Origin: a virus
DNA: 20,358 nt
Strand: one strand, 5' to 3'
IMG/VR virus record: IMGVR_UViG_3300037296_000248
Location: 1 to 20,358 of that record
The notes below the pieces were generated by a model, which saw only the letters and a list, made by a program, of their open reading frames with translations, was not told where the DNA came from and ran no database searches. How positions within the stretch are numbered: the stretch's first letter is position 1; each line of letters begins with the position of its first letter. Shown here piece by piece: positions 4,470 through 13,422 of this stretch. A program made the position numbers and the translations under genes.

Positions 4470-5459
4470 ATGGGACAGTCAGTTATTGCATCAGATAAAA
4501 ACGTATCGGATTTAGATATTAAGGTTTTCTTGGCTGAACAGCGAATTGTTGAATGGTACGAGCATTTCGATGGTCAGGTTTATATCTCATTTTCGGGCGG
4601 CAAAGACAGCACTGTTTTAGCTGAGTTAGTTTGGTCGATTTATCCAGAAGTACCTGCTGTGTTTTCTAATACTGGGCTTGAATATCCTGAGATTGTTCAG
4701 TTTGTTAAGTGGAAGCAGAAACAAGGATACCCAATCGTAATTGTTAGACCAAAAAAGACGTTTCGTGATGTGGTTATGAATGATGGCTTCCCGCTGATCA
4801 GTAAGAAGGTAGCTGAAATGGTATCTCGCTTTTATAACCCGTTGCCAAGCAATGAGGCGACACGAAGTCTTTATTTAACTGGAATTCGAAAAGATGGCGT
4901 TTTTAGTAAAGGGAGCAAACTTCCTGAACGTTGGAAAAAGTTAATAGATGCCCCTTTTAAAGTGACGGCCAGCTGCTGCGATTCTCTTAAAAAAGAGCCG
5001 TTCCGTCGATATATAAAAGAAACTGGGCGAATGCCTTATAGCGGGGTTATGTCGTCCGAGGGTGGTCGTCGAGGAATGATGAAAACCTGTAATTCATTTG
5101 ATGGGAAAGATCCTCAGTCTAAGCCTATGTTGCCTTGGAGCGAGGATGATGTGTGGCAGTACATTCGAGAAAACAATATTGAGTATTGCAGCGTCTACGA
5201 CGACAGAACGGTTAATGGCGTGTTTGTTGAAGGTGAAAAGCGAACAGGTTGTATGTTCTGTGCTTACGGTGCGCATCTAGAGAAAGGTGAAAATCGTTTT
5301 CAGCGCATGGCAATTACTCATCCAAAGCTTTGGAATTACTGCATTAACAAGTTGGGCATGGCGGAGGCGCTGGATTTTATCGGTGTTGATTATATGCCAT
5401 CAAGTCAAAAGCATGTAGAGAACAAACAATTGGAGTTGTTTGATCCTAAGAATTTATAG
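4470..5459 (+). CDS. Phage PAPS-reductase-family (PP-loop) protein
   Basis: The 329-residue protein has the PP-loop ATP-binding motif SGGKDS at 42-47 and a following FSNTGLEYPE strand typical of the phosphoadenosine phosphosulfate reductase/DndC superfamily. Cysteines at 169-170, C207, a CMFC pair at 261-264 and C291 could hold an iron-sulfur cluster or zinc; the CxxC is in RTGCMFCAYG. Such proteins activate sulfur or adenylate a substrate; phage versions are common but their substrate is unknown. No dnd partner genes are nearby, so DNA phosphorothioation is not supported. The start has AGGAGGAAAT upstream, nine bases after the replication gene. Longer than CysH (about 240 aa) because of a C-terminal extension. 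Confidence 0.85.
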   Translation: MGQSVIASDKNVSDLDIKVFLAEQRIVEWYEHFDGQVYISFSGGKDSTVLAELVWSIYPEVPAVFSNTGLEYPEIVQFVKWKQKQGYPIVIVRPKKTFRDVVMNDGFPLISKKVAEMVSRFYNPLPSNEATRSLYLTGIRKDGVFSKGSKLPERWKKLIDAPFKVTASCCDSLKKEPFRRYIKETGRMPYSGVMSSEGGRRGMMKTCNSFDGKDPQSKPMLPWSEDDVWQYIRENNIEYCSVYDDRTVNGVFVEGEKRTGCMFCAYGAHLEKGENRFQRMAITHPKLWNYCINKLGMAEALDFIGVDYMPSSQKHVENKQLELFDPKNL

Positions 5460-5529
5460 GGACTCAGGGCAAGGGGCGTAGTGTCCCGAAAACCACGAAC
5501 ATTACGATTTGAATTGCGGGTGAAATGAT

Positions 5530-5922
5530 ATGACAGATAAGAAAACGATTGGAGCCGTACCAAACATGCTTGGCAAGCTTAGTAAGCATGAGGTTGATGA
5601 ATTGGCTAAATACTCACTTGATCTTCAAGCGGAGGCTTCGCAACGGATATACACGCAGCAAATTCATCGAAACGCATTAGATACATTACTGCAAGATTTA
5701 ATGGAATTGAGAAGTAAGAACCGAGGTGCTCGATTTATTATTTTTGTATCAACTCGTTATTGGGGAATAATTGGCTCCTCTCGAATACATACGGAGGAAA
5801 TTGATAAGCACGGTACATTGCTTGGTTGCAAGCTGATGATATTTGAAGATGCGCCAACATTCGATCTCAAGACTCAAACACGGGATGAAGGCTATTACAT
5901 CCATTGCGTGAAACCGAGGTAA
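5530..5922 (+). CDS. Hypothetical early protein, 130 aa
   Basis: No family is recognised. The first half is helical and polar (LSKHEVDELAKYSLDLQAEA), the second beta-rich (FIIFVSTRYWGIIGSSRIHT and LGCKLMIFEDAP), with no signal peptide or membrane helix. The Shine-Dalgarno is weak (GGGTGA). It stops four bases before the ninB-like ATG and so belongs to the same operon. A 70-base gap with no clear signal separates it from the PAPS-reductase-family gene. Confidence 0.65.
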   Translation: MTDKKTIGAVPNMLGKLSKHEVDELAKYSLDLQAEASQRIYTQQIHRNALDTLLQDLMELRSKNRGARFIIFVSTRYWGIIGSSRIHTEEIDKHGTLLGCKLMIFEDAPTFDLKTQTRDEGYYIHCVKPR

Positions 5923-6687: not shown

Positions 6688-7094
6688 AATACGGTCGTGA
6701 AGTGACATTTAGCATTCCAGAAGCGTCGATCCTGCTCAATGTGTGGCAGCGGATGCATTGGAATAAGCGTCGCGAATATCACAAATCGTTGTGTTGGAGC
6801 GTGCGTGCCGCGCTAGAGAGTGAAGGTTACAAGCGCCTAAGTCCCTTTAAGCATTGCAAGATTGAGATAGACCGCTATTCCTCAAAGCTAGGTGATTGGG
6901 ATGGCGTAATGGGTGGGCTTAAACCTCTGTTCGATACTTTAGTTGTCTGCACTAAGACAAATCCTCTTGGCCTTGGCGTTATTGAAGATGACAACCCTAA
7001 TTGCATCATTAAATGCCCAATTATCAGACAACACAAATCAACACGTAAAGCGGCCTCGACAGTCGTGACAATCACAGAAATATTGGAGGCCTAA
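6684..7094 (+). CDS. rusA: RusA-type Holliday junction resolvase
   Basis: The 136-aa product fits RusA, the small dimeric resolvase that cuts four-way junctions. The family core is visible: a conserved N-terminal basic segment (MHWNKRREYHKS), the acidic metal-binding pair in GDWDGVMGGLKPLFDTLV (D71, D73, D84) and GVIEDDNPN (D102, D103). RusA proteins usually have D-x-D-N; here the residue after the second Asp is Gly, a small deviation. It overlaps the genes on both sides (ATGA upstream, TAATG downstream), so it is translated as part of one tight operon. Confidence 0.85.
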   Translation: MKYGREVTFSIPEASILLNVWQRMHWNKRREYHKSLCWSVRAALESEGYKRLSPFKHCKIEIDRYSSKLGDWDGVMGGLKPLFDTLVVCTKTNPLGLGVIEDDNPNCIIKCPIIRQHKSTRKAASTVVTITEILEA

Positions 7095-7957
7095 TGCAGT
7101 ATTTATCAGCCCGACAAATGTGGCACGATGCGTTTTATTCTCGCAGTGCAAACGATCAGCTATTAGAGATTAATCGCTCTAATGTGAACCTACTTAGGCA
7201 AAAACCTATTATGAATGAAACACAGACACGAGGCCCTGCGGATAACTCGTCGAGAGTCATGCACATGGCGAAAGCAGGGCGTGTGCAGTCTGAGATAGCG
7301 AAGCTGCCAGCTCATTTACAAGCATTTGGCATGTATTGTTGGGCCCCGAAAGCCGAAGACTCGTTACCAACCTTCAAGCATCACAACGAAATCGCCAACG
7401 CGCTCGCTCAGGAAGTAAAAGAGAAGTTTCCACAGGAATACAGCTATTACACAAGTCGCGTGAGTATCGTCATTTTAAACGTACTCAAATACGAGTTTGA
7501 GCGCGATAAAGGCCGTAAGCCGCAAAACATCGATATTACGTTAGCCAGTGCGATGGCAATGCCTAAGGATAAGGTAAGAGCTCAATGGGGTCACATCGTT
7601 AAGCACATTCGCGGCTGTATTCGTGACATGCTCATTTATCAAAGCGAGGTGCCTGGGCAACTCAGTATGAAGCTCGCTAACTCAGAACATATAAAACTCG
7701 TTCAAGTTGCAGATTTGGCTATCAAGTCATTCGCTCATAAAGATCAAGCATACATGTTCTCAGCAAGCGAAGATAAAGAACCAATTACACACACGAAGCC
7801 GCTTTATACTCAAGAATATCTAGCATGGCGTATTGGTGTGGCCTCAGCGAATTGGAAACGAGATGTCTGGCAAGATGTGTTTGATGAAATGATTGGCGCA
7901 TTAGATGAGTGGGCAATGGTGGCTCTGACATCTCTCGTTGAAGTAAGAAATAGGTAA
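7094..7957 (+). CDS. Unknown 287-aa protein in the antiterminator position
   Basis: The protein is largely helical and mildly basic in its middle (VKEKFPQEYSYYTSRVSIVI, then EFERDKGRKPQNIDITLASA), with no zinc-finger cysteines, signal peptide or membrane helix. I recognise no family. It is the last gene of the early block, has GGAGG before an ATG that overlaps rusA's stop, and is followed by about 440 bases with a candidate late promoter. Lambdoid phages place their late antiterminator Q exactly here, and several terminators downstream need an antiterminator. A Q-like role is therefore a reasonable positional inference, though sequence evidence is lacking. An internal ATG at 7211 with weaker context could be an alternative start. 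Confidence 0.65.
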   Translation: MQYLSARQMWHDAFYSRSANDQLLEINRSNVNLLRQKPIMNETQTRGPADNSSRVMHMAKAGRVQSEIAKLPAHLQAFGMYCWAPKAEDSLPTFKHHNEIANALAQEVKEKFPQEYSYYTSRVSIVILNVLKYEFERDKGRKPQNIDITLASAMAMPKDKVRAQWGHIVKHIRGCIRDMLIYQSEVPGQLSMKLANSEHIKLVQVADLAIKSFAHKDQAYMFSASEDKEPITHTKPLYTQEYLAWRIGVASANWKRDVWQDVFDEMIGALDEWAMVALTSLVEVRNR

Positions 7958-8547: not shown

Positions 8548-8574
8548 GCTATACAAGATTATGAATAAAAAGAT

Positions 8575-8586
8575 AAGTACGTACTT
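8575..8586. repeat. Perfect 12-bp palindrome, left copy of flanking repeat
   Basis: AAGTACGTACTT is a perfect palindrome about 90 bases before the YjzC-like gene. The sequence AGTACG[TC]ACTT recurs at 8880-8890 just after that gene. It could be an operator or a trace of a small insertion boundary. Confidence 0.4.
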
Positions 8587-8674
8587 CGTATTTCATCCGA
8601 TCAAATTTAATCTTTGTCGATTCAGCGATTTTAAACTTTACTAATTATTCAACATAAACGGGAAGGAAATACAT

Positions 8675-8857
8675 ATGAATAATTTACAAAAGCCAGGAGA
8701 AAAGCCTACTAGACCTGGTGAATATTTGGAGAGAGGCCCTAGAGGTGGCGTCGTAACAGATCCTCGACAAGTAACTATTGAACCTGGTGATAATAGAATG
8801 CCGCCTACACAAGAGCCAGGACGTACTTGGGAACGAGTTAGTCCACCCAAGCCATAG
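8675..8857 (+). CDS. YjzC-like small protein (moron)
   Basis: The 60-aa product has the sequence plan of the YjzC family best known from Bacillus: LQKPGEKPTRPGEYLERGPR, then GGVVTDPRQVTIEPGD, then P-P-T and RTWERV near the end. The same order (KPG-K-P, NG-Y-E-G, V-P-V-L-GD-FPPT, W) is remembered from YjzC proteins of about 60 aa; the match is by eye. Function of the family is unknown. A GGAAGGAAA site precedes the ATG. It stands alone between the peptide terminator and a convergent membrane-protein gene, and is flanked by short AGTACG-ACTT repeats, suggesting a separately acquired gene. Confidence 0.65.
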   Translation: MNNLQKPGEKPTRPGEYLERGPRGGVVTDPRQVTIEPGDNRMPPTQEPGRTWERVSPPKP

Positions 8858-8879
8858 ACACTATTATTGATTCTGGATT

Positions 8880-8922
8880 AGTACGCACTTTCCGTACGCA
8901 GTGCGCGGGTGCGTACTGCGTA
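8880..8922. repeat. Overlapping alternative inverted repeats between convergent genes
   Basis: AGTACGCAC (8880-8888) pairs perfectly with GTGCGTACT (8909-8917), while TACGCAGT (8895-8902) pairs perfectly with ACTGCGTA (8915-8922). The two stems share 8915-8917, so they are mutually exclusive. The block ends exactly at the stop codon of the minus-strand gene. There is no T run, so it is not a classical terminator. It contains the second direct copy and an inverted copy of the repeat seen at 8575. Confidence 0.6.
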
Positions 8923-9657
8923 TTATTCTTCTTCTGACAATAAATCGTTAATTATTGAGAACTGAAGGGATCTGGCTAGGCTAGCCAATGATTTAGCTTG
9001 TTGCTGAATATTTATTACATGACTAACTATGTCTTCGTTTGAGGATTCAGTTTTTTTTAAAATGAATTTTGATTCATTTATCAGCTCTCCTTGAGCTTTT
9101 GCTACCTGAGTAAACTGAACTACATATTCATTACTGGAGCTATAAACCGCCAAAAGGGTAGACATGTGAGGCCAAACTTTATTTGTTAATGTAATTATTT
9201 CTTTTATAATTTGATTTTTTGGTAAAGACTCTTGTGAAAGACGATTTGTTTCTTCAATTAAATCAAAATCGTGTCTTATTTGCTCACCAAGCTCTTGGTC
9301 TATAAATGTAGCTACAGTCTCTGAAGTTAAGCAAAGGTTATTAAGCTCTAAAACAATGATATCAAGCCGTTTTGAAGCCTTAAGTTGCCTGATCCATTCA
9401 CTACCTTTAAACCAACCAAAAGCCAGCAGGCCAACAGTGCCGAGTCCGGCAAGAAGAGAGCCGACCATACCCCAAAAGTCCGTAGCGTCTTCGTAGCTTA
9501 GTGCAAGTGCAATTGTCGCCCCAAGCGCAGCGCCTGTTATTAGTGTTAGTCCTTCTTTGAGGAGGAAGTCAGTTATGTGGCTTAGTACGGATTTTTGAGG
9601 AGAAGGCTTTTGATCCATTTGGTTGTGTTCCATGTTGGTTCGATTGTTTGCGTTCAC
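8923..9657 (-). CDS. Two-helix membrane protein with helical cytoplasmic domain (moron)
   Basis: The protein of up to 244 aa has a polar N-terminus, two hydrophobic helices (about 35-54, GLTLITGAALGATIALALSY; and about 62-83, WGMVGSLLAGLGTVGLLAFG), then about 155 mostly helical residues with coiled-coil character, presumably cytoplasmic. No known domain is recognised. It is the only minus-strand gene in the late region, so it is probably expressed on its own, including from the prophage. The start is uncertain: GTG 9655-9657 has AAGG directly against it, while ATGs at 9631-9633 and 9616-9618 lack clear sites. Membrane proteins in this position often act in superinfection exclusion; unproven here. 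Confidence 0.75.
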   Translation of the reverse strand: MNANNRTNMEHNQMDQKPSPQKSVLSHITDFLLKEGLTLITGAALGATIALALSYEDATDFWGMVGSLLAGLGTVGLLAFGWFKGSEWIRQLKASKRLDIIVLELNNLCLTSETVATFIDQELGEQIRHDFDLIEETNRLSQESLPKNQIIKEIITLTNKVWPHMSTLLAVYSSSNEYVVQFTQVAKAQGELINESKFILKKTESSNEDIVSHVINIQQQAKSLASLARSLQFSIINDLLSEEE

Positions 9658-9781
9658 CCTTTTTATCTTTAGCGCAAAATTAAGAAGGGAGCGTTGTTGC
9701 TTAGTTTTTAAATAATATGTACATTTTAATTGTCTTTATGGAAGTTAGCACACACTAATCAATCAGAATATGGAGATTTAT

Positions 9782-10222
9782 ATGTCAGATTCTTTTGTTT
9801 TAGAGGCGCTGTTTATCCAGCAGCGTCTTCAGATATTATCTATGGCCGATTCATTCCCTGATTTCTATGTGTATGCTTGGGAGGAGGGGGTCTACCCTTA
9901 CTTAGAAGATACCGATGGAACGGTAATTAGAAAGCCACATGAGCCTTATGAGTCCTGTTTTCGTTACGGCATACTAATGGTCAAGTCGGTTACAGAATTT
10001 ATAGATGAGAAATGGATCAAAAACGAAATTGTCACATTCAGAGATCTTGAGCGTCAATTCAAGGGGTATGAGCCACATCAACTCCAAAGGATTTGCAGAT
10101 ACTTATTTTTAAAAGGTTTGTTTGATGATGAGTTGTGGAATAGCTTTATCACCCCTCAATGCTCTTCGTCCGCTTTTGGAATAAAAGCAGACTACGACTC
10201 AAGCTCTATCTATTATATTTGA
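9782..10222 (+). CDS. Hypothetical 146-aa protein, first gene of accessory cassette
   Basis: The start is set at ATG 9782 because TGGAG (9771-9775) lies six bases upstream; the codon at 9770 would consume that site. The product is acidic and aromatic-rich (DSFPDFYVYAWEEGVYPYLE), with a helical C-terminal half that resembles a winged helix (IVTFRDLERQFKGYEPHQLQ, then RICRYLFLKGLFDDELW). It has no signal peptide or membrane segment. No family is recognised. It is divergent from the membrane-protein gene across a 120-base AT-rich gap and is followed after 31 bases by a 52-aa gene with a strong ribosome site. Confidence 0.65.
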   Translation: MSDSFVLEALFIQQRLQILSMADSFPDFYVYAWEEGVYPYLEDTDGTVIRKPHEPYESCFRYGILMVKSVTEFIDEKWIKNEIVTFRDLERQFKGYEPHQLQRICRYLFLKGLFDDELWNSFITPQCSSSAFGIKADYDSSSIYYI

Positions 10223-10253
10223 TTAAGACAACTAGATGTTCAAGGAGGAACAC

Positions 10254-10412
10254 ATGGAACAACTAAAGCAATTACTCGATAATTTAGAGCTCATTTCATT
10301 TCAAGATATTTCAGAGATCCCCGAAGACACGCAGCATGAGCTTGCCGAGCAGATAGAGCGGCTGCAGGATAATCTCAAGCGGTTGAGTGAAAATAAGGAA
10401 CATCATGGCTAA
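10254..10412 (+). CDS. 52-aa acidic helical protein
   Basis: ATG at 10254 has a very strong AAGGAGG (10242-10248). The product (start MEQLKQLLDNLELISFQDIS) is almost entirely helical and acidic, with leucines spaced as in a coiled coil (LAEQIERLQDNLKRL). It overlaps the next gene by eight bases, so the pair is translationally linked, as partner proteins often are. No family is recognised; a short accessory or adaptor subunit is possible. Confidence 0.6.
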   Translation: MEQLKQLLDNLELISFQDISEIPEDTQHELAEQIERLQDNLKRLSENKEHHG

Positions 10413-10815
10413 GCTAACAAAAGATCAAAAACGAAAGAAGCAACAAGTGCTGAAAAGAAAGCAAAGCGCCACACAGGCACAAACTATAAATAGAGTCCGA
10501 AACGTTTTATCGTCAATTGATGTGCCAATGGTCGATTTCTTTGATTCGCAAGATGATTCTGCACCTTCAGCGCTAACAGATGAAGAGCGAGAATTAAAAC
10601 CAAAAACTGGTGACACCTATATATCTAGCAAACCTGAAGGCATGAAGTTCTTTATAGAGAGTTCAGGTGGCTTCGAGGATGAAGACGGTGAATATTATAA
10701 TGTTGAGTTAATTGATTACGTGAATAAAGATAATTTTGATGCCGCTGGCGACTCTCTGTCACCAAATGAATGGGTGAAAATGGTTAAGGCCTATGGTTTG
10801 GTTCTTGAAGTATGA
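10405..10815 (+). CDS. Hypothetical 136-aa protein
   Basis: ATG at 10405 with AAGGAA upstream, inside the end of the 52-aa gene. The N-terminus is extremely basic (MAKLTKDQKRKKQQVLKRKQ), then turns acidic from residue about 45 onward (FFDSQDDSAPSALTDEEREL; GGFEDEDGEYYNVELIDYVN). This split charge pattern suggests an N-terminal nucleic-acid or membrane-surface contact and a separate folded C-terminal part. No family recognised. It ends with ATGA overlap with the next gene. Confidence 0.65.
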   Translation: MAKLTKDQKRKKQQVLKRKQSATQAQTINRVRNVLSSIDVPMVDFFDSQDDSAPSALTDEERELKPKTGDTYISSKPEGMKFFIESSGGFEDEDGEYYNVELIDYVNKDNFDAAGDSLSPNEWVKMVKAYGLVLEV

Positions 10816-11528
10816 CAGTCACCAAAGAGTACTGGAACATCCCAAAGCCAGATGATGTGCTGAGCGTAGCACAAGGCACAAACCTAACCGTGTTTGTGGA
10901 TCATGCGGATAACGCATTGGTTTGTGGGCTTACGACCAGTGATATTATTAGCTTGGTTTTGTCGGCCATTGGTATTGTTATTGGTTTATTGGCTTATAGA
11001 GCAGCGAGTAAAGCAAGTGATGCGGCTGAAATGGCAAACAATTTAGCCCAGGCTGAAGGAGAGGCTAACAGAGAGCACAACTATCAGTCAGTAAGACCTC
11101 TTCTTGATGTAGAGCATTCTAGAGAAATAATAAAGAATGGCTTTATTAAAAGAACTTCAGTTACGAATCATGGGGCTGGCGCTGCAATTTTAAAGACTGT
11201 TGAGCTATATGGACAAGGCAGAAGCTATTTTTTATCGTCAAATGACAAGACTTTGCTTACAGCTTTTTTGCTTCTACAGATAAGTAACTCTATAAAAGAT
11301 AAAGAATTCGATCCAATTGATTTTATCCCCCTAGCAACCTCAATAAGTAGTAATACTTTTTTTGGTTCAAACAAAAGTATGGTGCTTCTACAGGTGCAGT
11401 GTACTAATGTGCCAGACGATATAAGGGAATCTATTACAGACGCTTTAAACAATATTCAGGTTAGGGCTGTCTACCATTGCGTGTATGATCAAAAATATAT
11501 TCTTGACACCGTGATAATAAAAAACTAA
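10812..11528 (+). CDS. One-helix membrane protein, last gene of accessory cassette
   Basis: The 238-aa product has about 42 N-terminal residues, one clear membrane helix (about 43-62, SDIISLVLSAIGIVIGLLAY), then an Ala-rich amphipathic helix (RAASKASDAAEMANNLAQAE) and a beta-rich C-terminal domain of about 145 residues (from NYQSVRPLLDVEHS). The layout of a helix, an Ala-heptad stalk and a beta domain recurs in many uncharacterised bacterial membrane proteins. It has two cysteines near the end. Start codon overlaps the preceding TGA; terminator follows at 11558. Function unknown; being coupled to two soluble partners suggests a membrane-anchored complex. Confidence 0.7.
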   Translation: MTVTKEYWNIPKPDDVLSVAQGTNLTVFVDHADNALVCGLTTSDIISLVLSAIGIVIGLLAYRAASKASDAAEMANNLAQAEGEANREHNYQSVRPLLDVEHSREIIKNGFIKRTSVTNHGAGAAILKTVELYGQGRSYFLSSNDKTLLTAFLLLQISNSIKDKEFDPIDFIPLATSISSNTFFGSNKSMVLLQVQCTNVPDDIRESITDALNNIQVRAVYHCVYDQKYILDTVIIKN

Positions 11529-11557
11529 CCTTTTTCCCATAGTCCAGATTTACACCC

Positions 11558-11581
11558 AAAACCCGCTTCTTGCGGGTTTTT
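11558..11581 (+). terminator. Terminator after the accessory cassette
   Basis: AAAACCCGC (11558-11566) pairs with GCGGGTTTT (11572-11580) around TTCTT, followed by another T. It separates the accessory block from the lysis genes. Confidence 0.85.
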
Positions 11582-11632: not shown

Positions 11633-11666
11633 GCCGCCCACGTTTTTAGCGTGAGGCGGCTTTTTT
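11633..11666 (+). terminator. Second terminator, just before the lysis genes
   Basis: GCCGCCCACG (11633-11642) pairs with CGTG-A-GGCGGC (11650-11660), one bulged A, followed by six T. A strong intrinsic terminator 16 bases before the first lysis gene implies that late transcripts must read through it. Confidence 0.85.
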
Positions 11667-11681
11667 ATTTTTGGAATTTGT

Positions 11682-12017
11682 ATGACTGCTGACAACGAGC
11701 TTCTAGTTCAAGAGCTTAGAGAACAGCGCAAGGTTTCAAGTGCTCAACACTCGGAATTGCGCACTGCTGTGGTTGATATGGCGAAGTCTGTTTCTGAATT
11801 GACTGTGGTTGTTGCCCGATCAGAAGAGCGGCACTTGCGACAAGATGACGGGCTAAAGCGAATTGGCAAGCAAGTTGATGACCATGAAATACGAATTAGA
11901 ACGGTTGAGACTAACGGTTTTACGCAGCGTGGTTATGTGTCTGGCGGCTGGAAAGTGGCCACAGTGGTTGCGGCTATCGTGTCATGTGCAGTAACCGTAG
12001 GGGTTAAGTTTTTATGA
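11682..12017 (+). CDS. XhlA-like coiled-coil membrane protein, lysis module
   Basis: The 111-aa product has a long N-terminal coiled coil (ELLVQELREQRKVSSAQHSE onward to about residue 83) and one C-terminal membrane helix at about 90-109 (WKVATVVAAIVSCAVTVGVK). This is the topology of XhlA/haemolysin-type and some holin-associated phage proteins: cytoplasmic coiled coil anchored by a C-terminal helix. It overlaps the endolysin start by four bases and shares its transcript, so a role in lysis, as holin partner or regulator, is likely. Start is ATG 11682 with GGAATT upstream. An alternative reading as a tail or unrelated membrane protein is less likely given position. Confidence 0.7.
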   Translation: MTADNELLVQELREQRKVSSAQHSELRTAVVDMAKSVSELTVVVARSEERHLRQDDGLKRIGKQVDDHEIRIRTVETNGFTQRGYVSGGWKVATVVAAIVSCAVTVGVKFL

Positions 12018-12565
12018 GCCAATTATCGCAAGACTTTAAAAAAGCATTTGAACTGGTAATTATCCATGAAGCTGGCTTTGTAAATGATCCTCGCGACCCA
12101 GGTGGAAAGACTAAGTTTGGTATCTCAGATCGCAGAGATGGCAAAGTTGACGGCCTAGCCGATCTTGACGGTGACGGATCAGGGGATAAAGCCATCGAGT
12201 TATTAACACTCGAAGATGCTGGAAACATTTATAAGCGTGAGTACTGGGATAAGTGCCGTTGCGACGAGCTACCAAGCGCAATTGCAACAGCACTATTTGA
12301 TACCGCCGTAAATGTCGGAAACCACCAAGCCAAATTGTTATTGCAGCGAGCCTTGGGCGTAAATGATGACGGCATTATTGGCTCCATCACAATGAAAAAA
12401 GCCCAACAAGCAAGCCAACCATATTTGATAGCACGATTTATGGCAGAGCGCCAAATGTATTACGCAGCACTGAAAAGCTGGAATACATACGGCCTTGGCT
12501 GGACTCGTCGTGTGATTGAAACCGCGCATTACTGTCTATCACTCACAAATAAGGAGGTGACATGA
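12014..12565 (+). CDS. GH108 N-acetylmuramidase endolysin
   Basis: The 183-aa enzyme should cut the glycan strands of peptidoglycan at the end of infection. It starts with the GH108 motif IIHEAGFVNDPRDPGGKTKF, with the catalytic glutamate at E19, and continues with YKREYWDKCRCDELP and TALFDTAVNVGNHQAKLLLQ, which belongs to the following peptidoglycan-binding_3 region. Between them residues about 41-62 carry DLDGDGSGDKAIE, similar to an EF-hand calcium loop, an insertion seen in other GH108 proteins. No signal peptide is present, so a holin is needed. AGGGGTTAAG lies upstream; the gene overlaps both lysis neighbours. Confidence 0.93.
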   Translation: MSQLSQDFKKAFELVIIHEAGFVNDPRDPGGKTKFGISDRRDGKVDGLADLDGDGSGDKAIELLTLEDAGNIYKREYWDKCRCDELPSAIATALFDTAVNVGNHQAKLLLQRALGVNDDGIIGSITMKKAQQASQPYLIARFMAERQMYYAALKSWNTYGLGWTRRVIETAHYCLSLTNKEVT

Positions 12566-12861
12566 TTAGTGCAATTGTTAATGCCATTTTTGGCATGTTC
12601 ACAGGTGCTGGTGTGGCGGGGATTTTCGCCAATCTAGTGAAAGAAGCGCTTTTAGCGTTGGTTATGAAGATTGAATGGAAGGTTGTCATTGAGCGAGCCA
12701 CCACACGAATTGTTGTGAGCGGTTTGCATCGATTAGCCTCGTTATCTACTAACAGCTTGTTAACAGAAACAGTGGAAGACTTCGTTAATCAGTTGCAAAG
12801 CAAAGGCTTGAAGAAGGCCAATCAGACTTACGAGTCGGCAAAGAAATACAGACCAACTTAA
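12562..12861 (+). CDS. Small hydrophobic protein of the lysis module
   Basis: The 99-aa protein starts with ATGA overlap on the endolysin and an AAGGAGG site. Residues about 3-36 are hydrophobic and glycine-rich (AIVNAIFGMFTGAGVAGIFA, then NLVKEALLALVMKI) and could be one or two membrane segments. The remainder is a basic amphipathic helix region. No sequence family is recognised. Its place directly after the endolysin makes it a holin or spanin-like candidate; no lipobox or classical spanin signature is seen, so holin is the better guess. Confidence 0.6.
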   Translation: MISAIVNAIFGMFTGAGVAGIFANLVKEALLALVMKIEWKVVIERATTRIVVSGLHRLASLSTNSLLTETVEDFVNQLQSKGLKKANQTYESAKKYRPT

Positions 12862-12948: not shown

Positions 12949-13422
12949 ATGTCAGATAAAAAAGTAACACCGCAGCATATCGAAGGGCTTATTCATTCTC
13001 TTGAATTTAAGTTCACACGCATTGAAGGCACGACAACGACCGCTTGCTGGGCATTTTTGCCAAACGGTTTTGGTGTTGGTTACGGTGAGTCTGCTTGTGT
13101 AGATCCTGCCAACTTTGATTTTGAGCTTGGTAAGACTTACGCGCGTGCTCGTTGCATTCAAGCCGCGACAAATAAACTGTGGGAGCTTGAGGGTTACTTA
13201 CTTGCAAACAAGTTAAACCAAGACGAGCCGACAGATCATGTTGCTCGTATGCGAAAAGAGTTTGGCGAGTTGTCGGAAAAGCTTTTTAAGCTTACTGATT
13301 TCGTCCGCTCAGAAAAAGCGCAAGCGCTAGACGAACAAACGCTAACACTTATGCTTGAACAAGGTGAAGCGATGGCTACTTATCACGAAATATTGAACAA
13401 GCGTATCGAATTACATGGCTAA
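12949..13422 (+). CDS. Phage gp49-like protein fused to a crAss001_48-like domain
   Basis: Residues 1-88 match the gp49/gp66-like family of small phage proteins (Phage_gp49_66): FTRIEGTTTTACWAFLPNGF, then GYGESACVDPANFD, LGKTYARARCIQAATNKLWE and LEGYLL. Residues about 97-157 form a helical domain with the pattern of the crAss001_48-related family: MRKEFGELSEKLFKLTDFVR, then QTLTLMLEQGEAMATYHEIL and NKRIEL. Both functions are unknown; each usually occurs alone or fused in phage genomes. AGGAATT precedes the ATG, and the end overlaps the small terminase by eight bases. Confidence 0.8.
   Translation: MSDKKVTPQHIEGLIHSLEFKFTRIEGTTTTACWAFLPNGFGVGYGESACVDPANFDFELGKTYARARCIQAATNKLWELEGYLLANKLNQDEPTDHVARMRKEFGELSEKLFKLTDFVRSEKAQALDEQTLTLMLEQGEAMATYHEILNKRIELHG

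Follow-up and report, generated by a model that had tools for sequence, protein, structure and literature searches.

A hypervariable gene slot between a Q-like gene and the lysis genes of temperate Marinomonas phages, probably an anti-phage hotspot

Ahead of its lysis genes, the phage genome analysed here (a complete IMG/VR record of 20,358 bases, hereafter the window) carries a block of small and membrane-protein genes, which raises the question of whether these genes act as one dedicated system or are the present occupants of a site at which genes are exchanged. The relatives of the window are Marinomonas prophages, namely those of M. polaris DSM 16579 and of an isolate (IMG 2834262506), together with three metagenome contigs; its DNA shows no similarity to E. 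coli genomes or phage records. At a probability of roughly 0.6, we read the block as a hypervariable moron or exclusion hotspot of temperate Marinomonas phages, probably anti-phage in nature, situated between a Q-like gene and the lysis genes.

Composition and boundaries of the block

The left conserved flank is a forward-strand gene (7094..7957) kept in the sister phages and tentatively assigned as a late antiterminator; it matches phrog_3373, a family of unknown function (3.5e-19), and the Q-like phrog_304 (E 0.028), so that the Q label itself is weak. The right conserved flank, likewise kept in the sisters, comprises the lysis genes and a 99-aa gene (11682..12861, forward strand), the order downstream of the block being a terminator, an XhlA-like 111-aa gene, a lysin gene (12014-12565) and then the terminase. 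The first-pass annotation had placed six genes ahead of lysis genes at this location, and the open reading frames of all six, as well as the lysis genes themselves, were confirmed. The first encodes a YjzC-like 60-aa protein (8675..8857, forward; PF14168, E 4.4e-10; phrog_3202, 4.7e-16). It is followed by a minus-strand gene (8923..9657) for a two-TM membrane protein, here termed MEM, and by four forward genes: those of a 146-aa protein (9782..10222), a 52-aa protein (10254..10412) whose start is supported by AAGGAGG immediately 5' of the ATG, a 136-aa protein with a basic N-terminal and an acidic C-terminal part (10405..10815), and a 238-aa protein termed EFF (10812..11528). The 52-aa and 136-aa genes overlap by 8 bases (10405-10412) and the 136-aa and EFF genes by 4 bases (10812-10815). 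The five frames other than the YjzC-like one have homologous coding sequence elsewhere and are therefore not chance frames. MEM, EFF and the 146-, 52- and 136-aa proteins have no usable match in Pfam, PHROG, PADLOC or NCBIfam, and no window gene matches a defence family in PADLOC. The earlier description of an accessory block of overlapping genes, devoid of structural or lysis homology and located at a classical moron/exclusion position, is thus borne out. Sequence searches with the 146-aa protein, for which a winged-helix-like nature had been suggested, gave no Pfam match and only marginal, unrelated matches in the PDB.

Lambdoid phages carry lysogenic-conversion genes between Q and the lysis genes. 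The Marinomonas block is alike in position and moron-like organisation, and no sequence relation to those genes was found.

Two hairpins delimit the part of the block that contains MEM and the forward cassette. The left one (8894..8923, no strand assigned; 13-bp stem, z -5.2) adjoins the 3' end of MEM, and its motif is present at the matching place in the window and in seven of the eight relatives checked, but does not occur in control Marinomonas DNA totalling 160 kb. The right one is a strong intrinsic-terminator-like hairpin with a T run (11633..11670, forward; z -4.1) directly before the first lysis gene, which separates the block from the lysis genes; a weaker terminator-like hairpin lies at 11557-11580 (z -2.6). 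Promoter-like sites within the block (12, against 9.6 expected) support no promoter. In the arrangement that we propose, MEM is oriented opposite to the late operon, the forward cassette that diverges from it is enclosed by the hairpin and the terminator, and the block would be expressed in the lysogen. A comparable layout is known from phi80, where the Tai immune gene (the taiEcA noncontiguous operon) lies divergently inside the Q operon (PMC11364771). MEM, with its minus-strand orientation and its place between the Q-like gene and the lysis genes, would similarly interrupt a Q-controlled late operon, subject to the weakness of the Q label; in contrast to the Tai arrangement, no counter-defence gene was identified in the Marinomonas slot.

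Replacement of the slot contents among related phages

In alignments to seven relatives, most 500-base bins of the flanks are conserved at ~72-100% DNA identity, and the region from 8.0 to 11.5 kb is mostly unalignable, even against a sister with flanks at 91-100%. In every relative ~3.5 kb between two conserved phage genes has been replaced, the pattern expected of a hotspot. Elsewhere in the window, positions 4470-5920 form a second replaced region, where a PAPS-reductase-like gene aligns at ~75% to the phage of genome G030 and hardly to closer sisters, and an N4 gp49/Sf6 gp66-like gene at 12950-13422 (PF13876, PF21825) is missing or replaced in sisters.

Gene maps of the unannotated loci consist of mechanically called open reading frames, with some neighbours named by eye and some sister records being fragments. 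On these maps the window slot contains MEM followed by the 146-aa, 52-aa, 136-aa and EFF genes; that of contig 3300025671 has MEM, 146-aa (91% identity), 52-aa, 77-aa and EFF genes, and that of M. polaris MEM, 52-aa, 77-aa and EFF genes. The relative from 3300037296 holds MEM, 52-aa and EFF genes, 3300031976 only the 52-aa and 136-aa genes, prophage 2834262506 MEM, 52-aa and RES-domain genes, and genome G046 MEM, 52-aa and 136-aa genes (the last at about 50%). More distant contents occur in G030 (locus L087), with MEM and genes for 52-aa (51%), 146-aa (43%), 100-aa and EFF (31%) proteins, and in G014 (L098), with 52-aa and 150-aa genes. Only the 52-aa gene is constant across the slots. On its 3' side lies the 136-aa gene, with EFF missing from L006 and L094; a 77-aa gene in its stead (L004 and L005); EFF directly (L002); or a RES-domain toxin gene (L015, the isolate prophage; PF08808, 4.6e-11), a domain that Pfam searches place in this sister only and not in the window itself.

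These comparisons bear directly on the earlier proposal of a co-conserved four-gene system, in which the 146-, 52-, 136-aa and EFF proteins would act together as a dedicated four-component defence. Pairs and triples of the genes do recur elsewhere, and the 146-aa, 52-aa and EFF genes occur jointly in three phages at 31-91% identity. The exact quartet was nevertheless found in no other locus, the 136-aa gene is exchangeable, the 146-aa gene usually stands alone in capsid-forming PICIs (see below), and the order in L087 (52-146-100-EFF) differs from that of the window. We accordingly regard a four-component system as very improbable, and favour the hotspot reading, under which effector genes and domains would be exchanged by recombination at shared points, namely the 52-aa gene, the EFF N-terminus and the membrane core of MEM.

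The constant 52-aa protein is 69-96% identical among relatives, with a dN/dS of 0.10-0.35 indicative of purifying selection, and the stop codon of its gene overlaps the following start in the window, L002, L004, L005, L006 and L015 despite the differing next genes. Relatives of the 136-aa protein reach 84% and 51% identity; among 391 order-level genomes searched with narrow profiles there was one weak match for the 136-aa and none for the 146-aa protein. The 52-aa family extends to Marinomonas chromosomes, and most of the 49 genomes searched contain host chromosomal copies of it. The 52-aa protein might serve as a common small partner or leader for any following gene.

A small gene overlapping the start of an effector gene is also the layout of a toxin-antitoxin module, in which the 52-aa and/or the 136-aa protein would neutralise the downstream EFF (or the RES protein in L015), serving prophage stabilisation or abortive infection. 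The RES-domain gene that fills the slot of sister prophage L015, directly after the 52-aa gene, recalls the RES-domain toxins NatT, MbcT and ParT, and a 52-aa family gene in L121 lies beside an apparent Xre/RES pair, identified by eye. Unlike a specific antitoxin, the 52-aa protein stays highly conserved while its downstream neighbour changes completely; moreover, it matches no known antitoxin family, the window has no RES gene, L121 has a separate antitoxin-like gene, and most chromosomal 52-aa copies are without an evident toxin. Such a module is therefore unlikely.

The surroundings of the chromosomal 52-aa copies are varied. Relatives in L096, L095, L103 and L121 adjoin SspBCD, a Shango/BrxHI-type helicase, an E2-E1-JAB protein and the apparent Xre-RES pair, and Gabija-like genes are also among the neighbours. 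Known defence loci lie beside ~4-6 of 22 copies as against ~2 of 20 random places and are not clearly commoner there, these locus numbers being approximate since PADLOC families rather than loci were counted; a defence-island enrichment was dropped, as the random-region control was not clearly separated. Six relatives (L120, L138, L090, L133, L096 and L103) lie within ~160 bases of secreted-nuclease-like genes, as judged by eye, and umuDC-like genes occur near 52-aa, MEM or EFF relatives in L089, L091, L092 and L132.

Mosaic membrane proteins

Replacement extends into the two membrane proteins. The N- and C-terminal modules of MEM, linked by a conserved second TM segment, vary independently of each other: the C-module is 86% identical with that of L094 and 49% with that of L002, although the N-modules reach only 25-32%, and the N-module is 73% identical with that of L005 although the C-module reaches 13%. 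The first 32 residues of EFF are 75-100% identical among four phages, and residues from 90 on only 21-30%. The EFF C-terminal parts keep S.RP.L ... N.G.G.A and related motifs in common, and hence are divergent versions of one domain. An AlphaFold2 model (mean pLDDT 79.8) comprises a 52-residue helix, the TM/coiled helix of residues 42-93, followed by a beta-rich C-terminal domain. We take this domain to be cytoplasmic from the charges around the TM segment, positive after it, as read by eye. On the sequence comparisons, both proteins thus appear to have a conserved membrane part and a cytoplasmic part that is swapped or strongly diverged, and they may represent membrane-anchored proteins with diversifying cytoplasmic domains.

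At 7 of 20 sites in the 49 genomes of the family, MEM and a 52-aa relative are at most 6 kb apart. Three of these loci lie outside this phage family (3/16; P ~7e-5 under uniform placement, a model that ignores the clustering of accessory genes). No tblastn match was recovered for MEM in phage records, or for EFF in phage records or plasmids, and EFF has no sequence match in the PDB. One EFF relative matches EACC1 (E 0.008). A match of EFF to Cas8/Csx8 (E 1e-4) was rejected as spurious, being weak and confined to one of 11 family members. On the G046 chromosome (L104, 5423-5656), the EFF N-terminus and TM segment form a lone 77-aa reading frame after an apparent ParDE/RelBE pair.

The position of EFF invites a further explanation, in which it would time or assist lysis, for instance as an antiholin. 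It has a single TM segment, its relatives in three other prophages lie just upstream of holin/lysin genes (by eye), and a PHROG holin match (E 0.013) covers the TM segment only. This match does not amount to family homology, nor is EFF an invariant companion of the lysis genes, as it is missing from L006 and L094, which keep the same ones. Furthermore, EFF relatives also occur beside other chromosomal genes and beside dusA, there directly after a 52-aa relative, and a terminator intervenes between EFF and the lysis genes. A lysis role consequently seems quite unlikely.

The 146-aa family, satellites and the nature of the slot

The 146-aa protein, 91% identical to its relative in the sister phage and 36-43% to others, founds an uncatalogued family with members in phages, capsid-forming PICIs (cf-PICIs) and plasmids. 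Its signature is Y..AW...VYP / H / E / CRY, and an alignment of 33 sequences shows little or no variation at Y29, A32, W33, P39, H53, F60, E90 and Y107. A scan of viral contigs recovered relatives on 31 contigs beyond the sister phage, 23 of them cf-PICIs in which the gene, alone and in divergent orientation, separates the capsid gene from the replication module. The relatives recovered by tblastn belong to a Pleionea plasmid, a capsid-forming PICI of Salmonella Senftenberg and a Microvirga plasmid, on which the gene adjoins an Abi-family gene and DISARM genes; the plasmid search returned three records and that of phage records none. E. coli PCP06171 carries another copy, within a PICI located at dusB-fis, and in L189, another phage, a relative immediately precedes genes that look by eye like those of a holin, a lysin and a spanin. 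Since other E. coli islands hold unrelated genes at the place of the 146-aa family, the cf-PICI slot is an exchange site too. In some islands it is occupied by 168-170-aa proteins (L112 5930-6442, L116 5932-6438, L117 6699-7208) whose VQIGxxN-like motif recalls amyloid signalling motifs.

An immune region that has been described in PICIs adjoins the pri gene (PMC11364771), and the 146-aa family resembles it in lying beside the replication/primase gene of cf-PICIs. The 146-aa gene may be an interference gene that needs no partners, like those borne by satellites. A more specific possibility, which we put forward tentatively, is that it represents a new single-gene anti-phage family common to enterobacterial cf-PICIs and temperate phages, combined in Marinomonas phages with a domain-swapping membrane pair, MEM and EFF, of fixed membrane anchor and interchangeable cytoplasmic sensor or effector domains.

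The antiviral hotspots of P2, P4 and other prophages occupy 1-5 kb and have conserved phage genes on either side (Rousset et al. 2022; PMC9122126). The Marinomonas slot is similar in being a small, high-turnover locus between two conserved phage genes with a conserved anchor gene. It differs in phage lineage and in position, from the Q-like gene to the lysis genes, in occupants that match no known defence family, and in the mosaicism within its membrane proteins. We favour the anti-phage interpretation, according to which the contents of the slot would most likely protect the lysogen from other phages, since in location, turnover, divergent orientation within the late region and occurrence in satellites the slot corresponds to known anti-phage hotspots and noncontiguous-operon immune genes. 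Equal turnover would be produced by other lysogenic-conversion genes, acting in host physiology or stress, and the block might instead consist of these or of neutral recombinational cargo. The absence of a known defence domain and the chromosomal distribution of the 52-aa family agree with such an origin, while purifying selection on the 52-aa protein, the satellite-slot distribution of the 146-aa family and the fast divergence of the cytoplasmic domains speak against it; on balance we consider it rather unlikely.

Hotspots flanked by conserved phage genes are a productive source of new anti-phage systems, and this one sits in a little-studied marine phage family with contents that are missing from defence catalogues. 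The domains swapped in MEM and EFF point to the sites of selection or recombination, and the 146-aa family ties the slot to satellites in tractable enterobacteria, where its function is directly testable.
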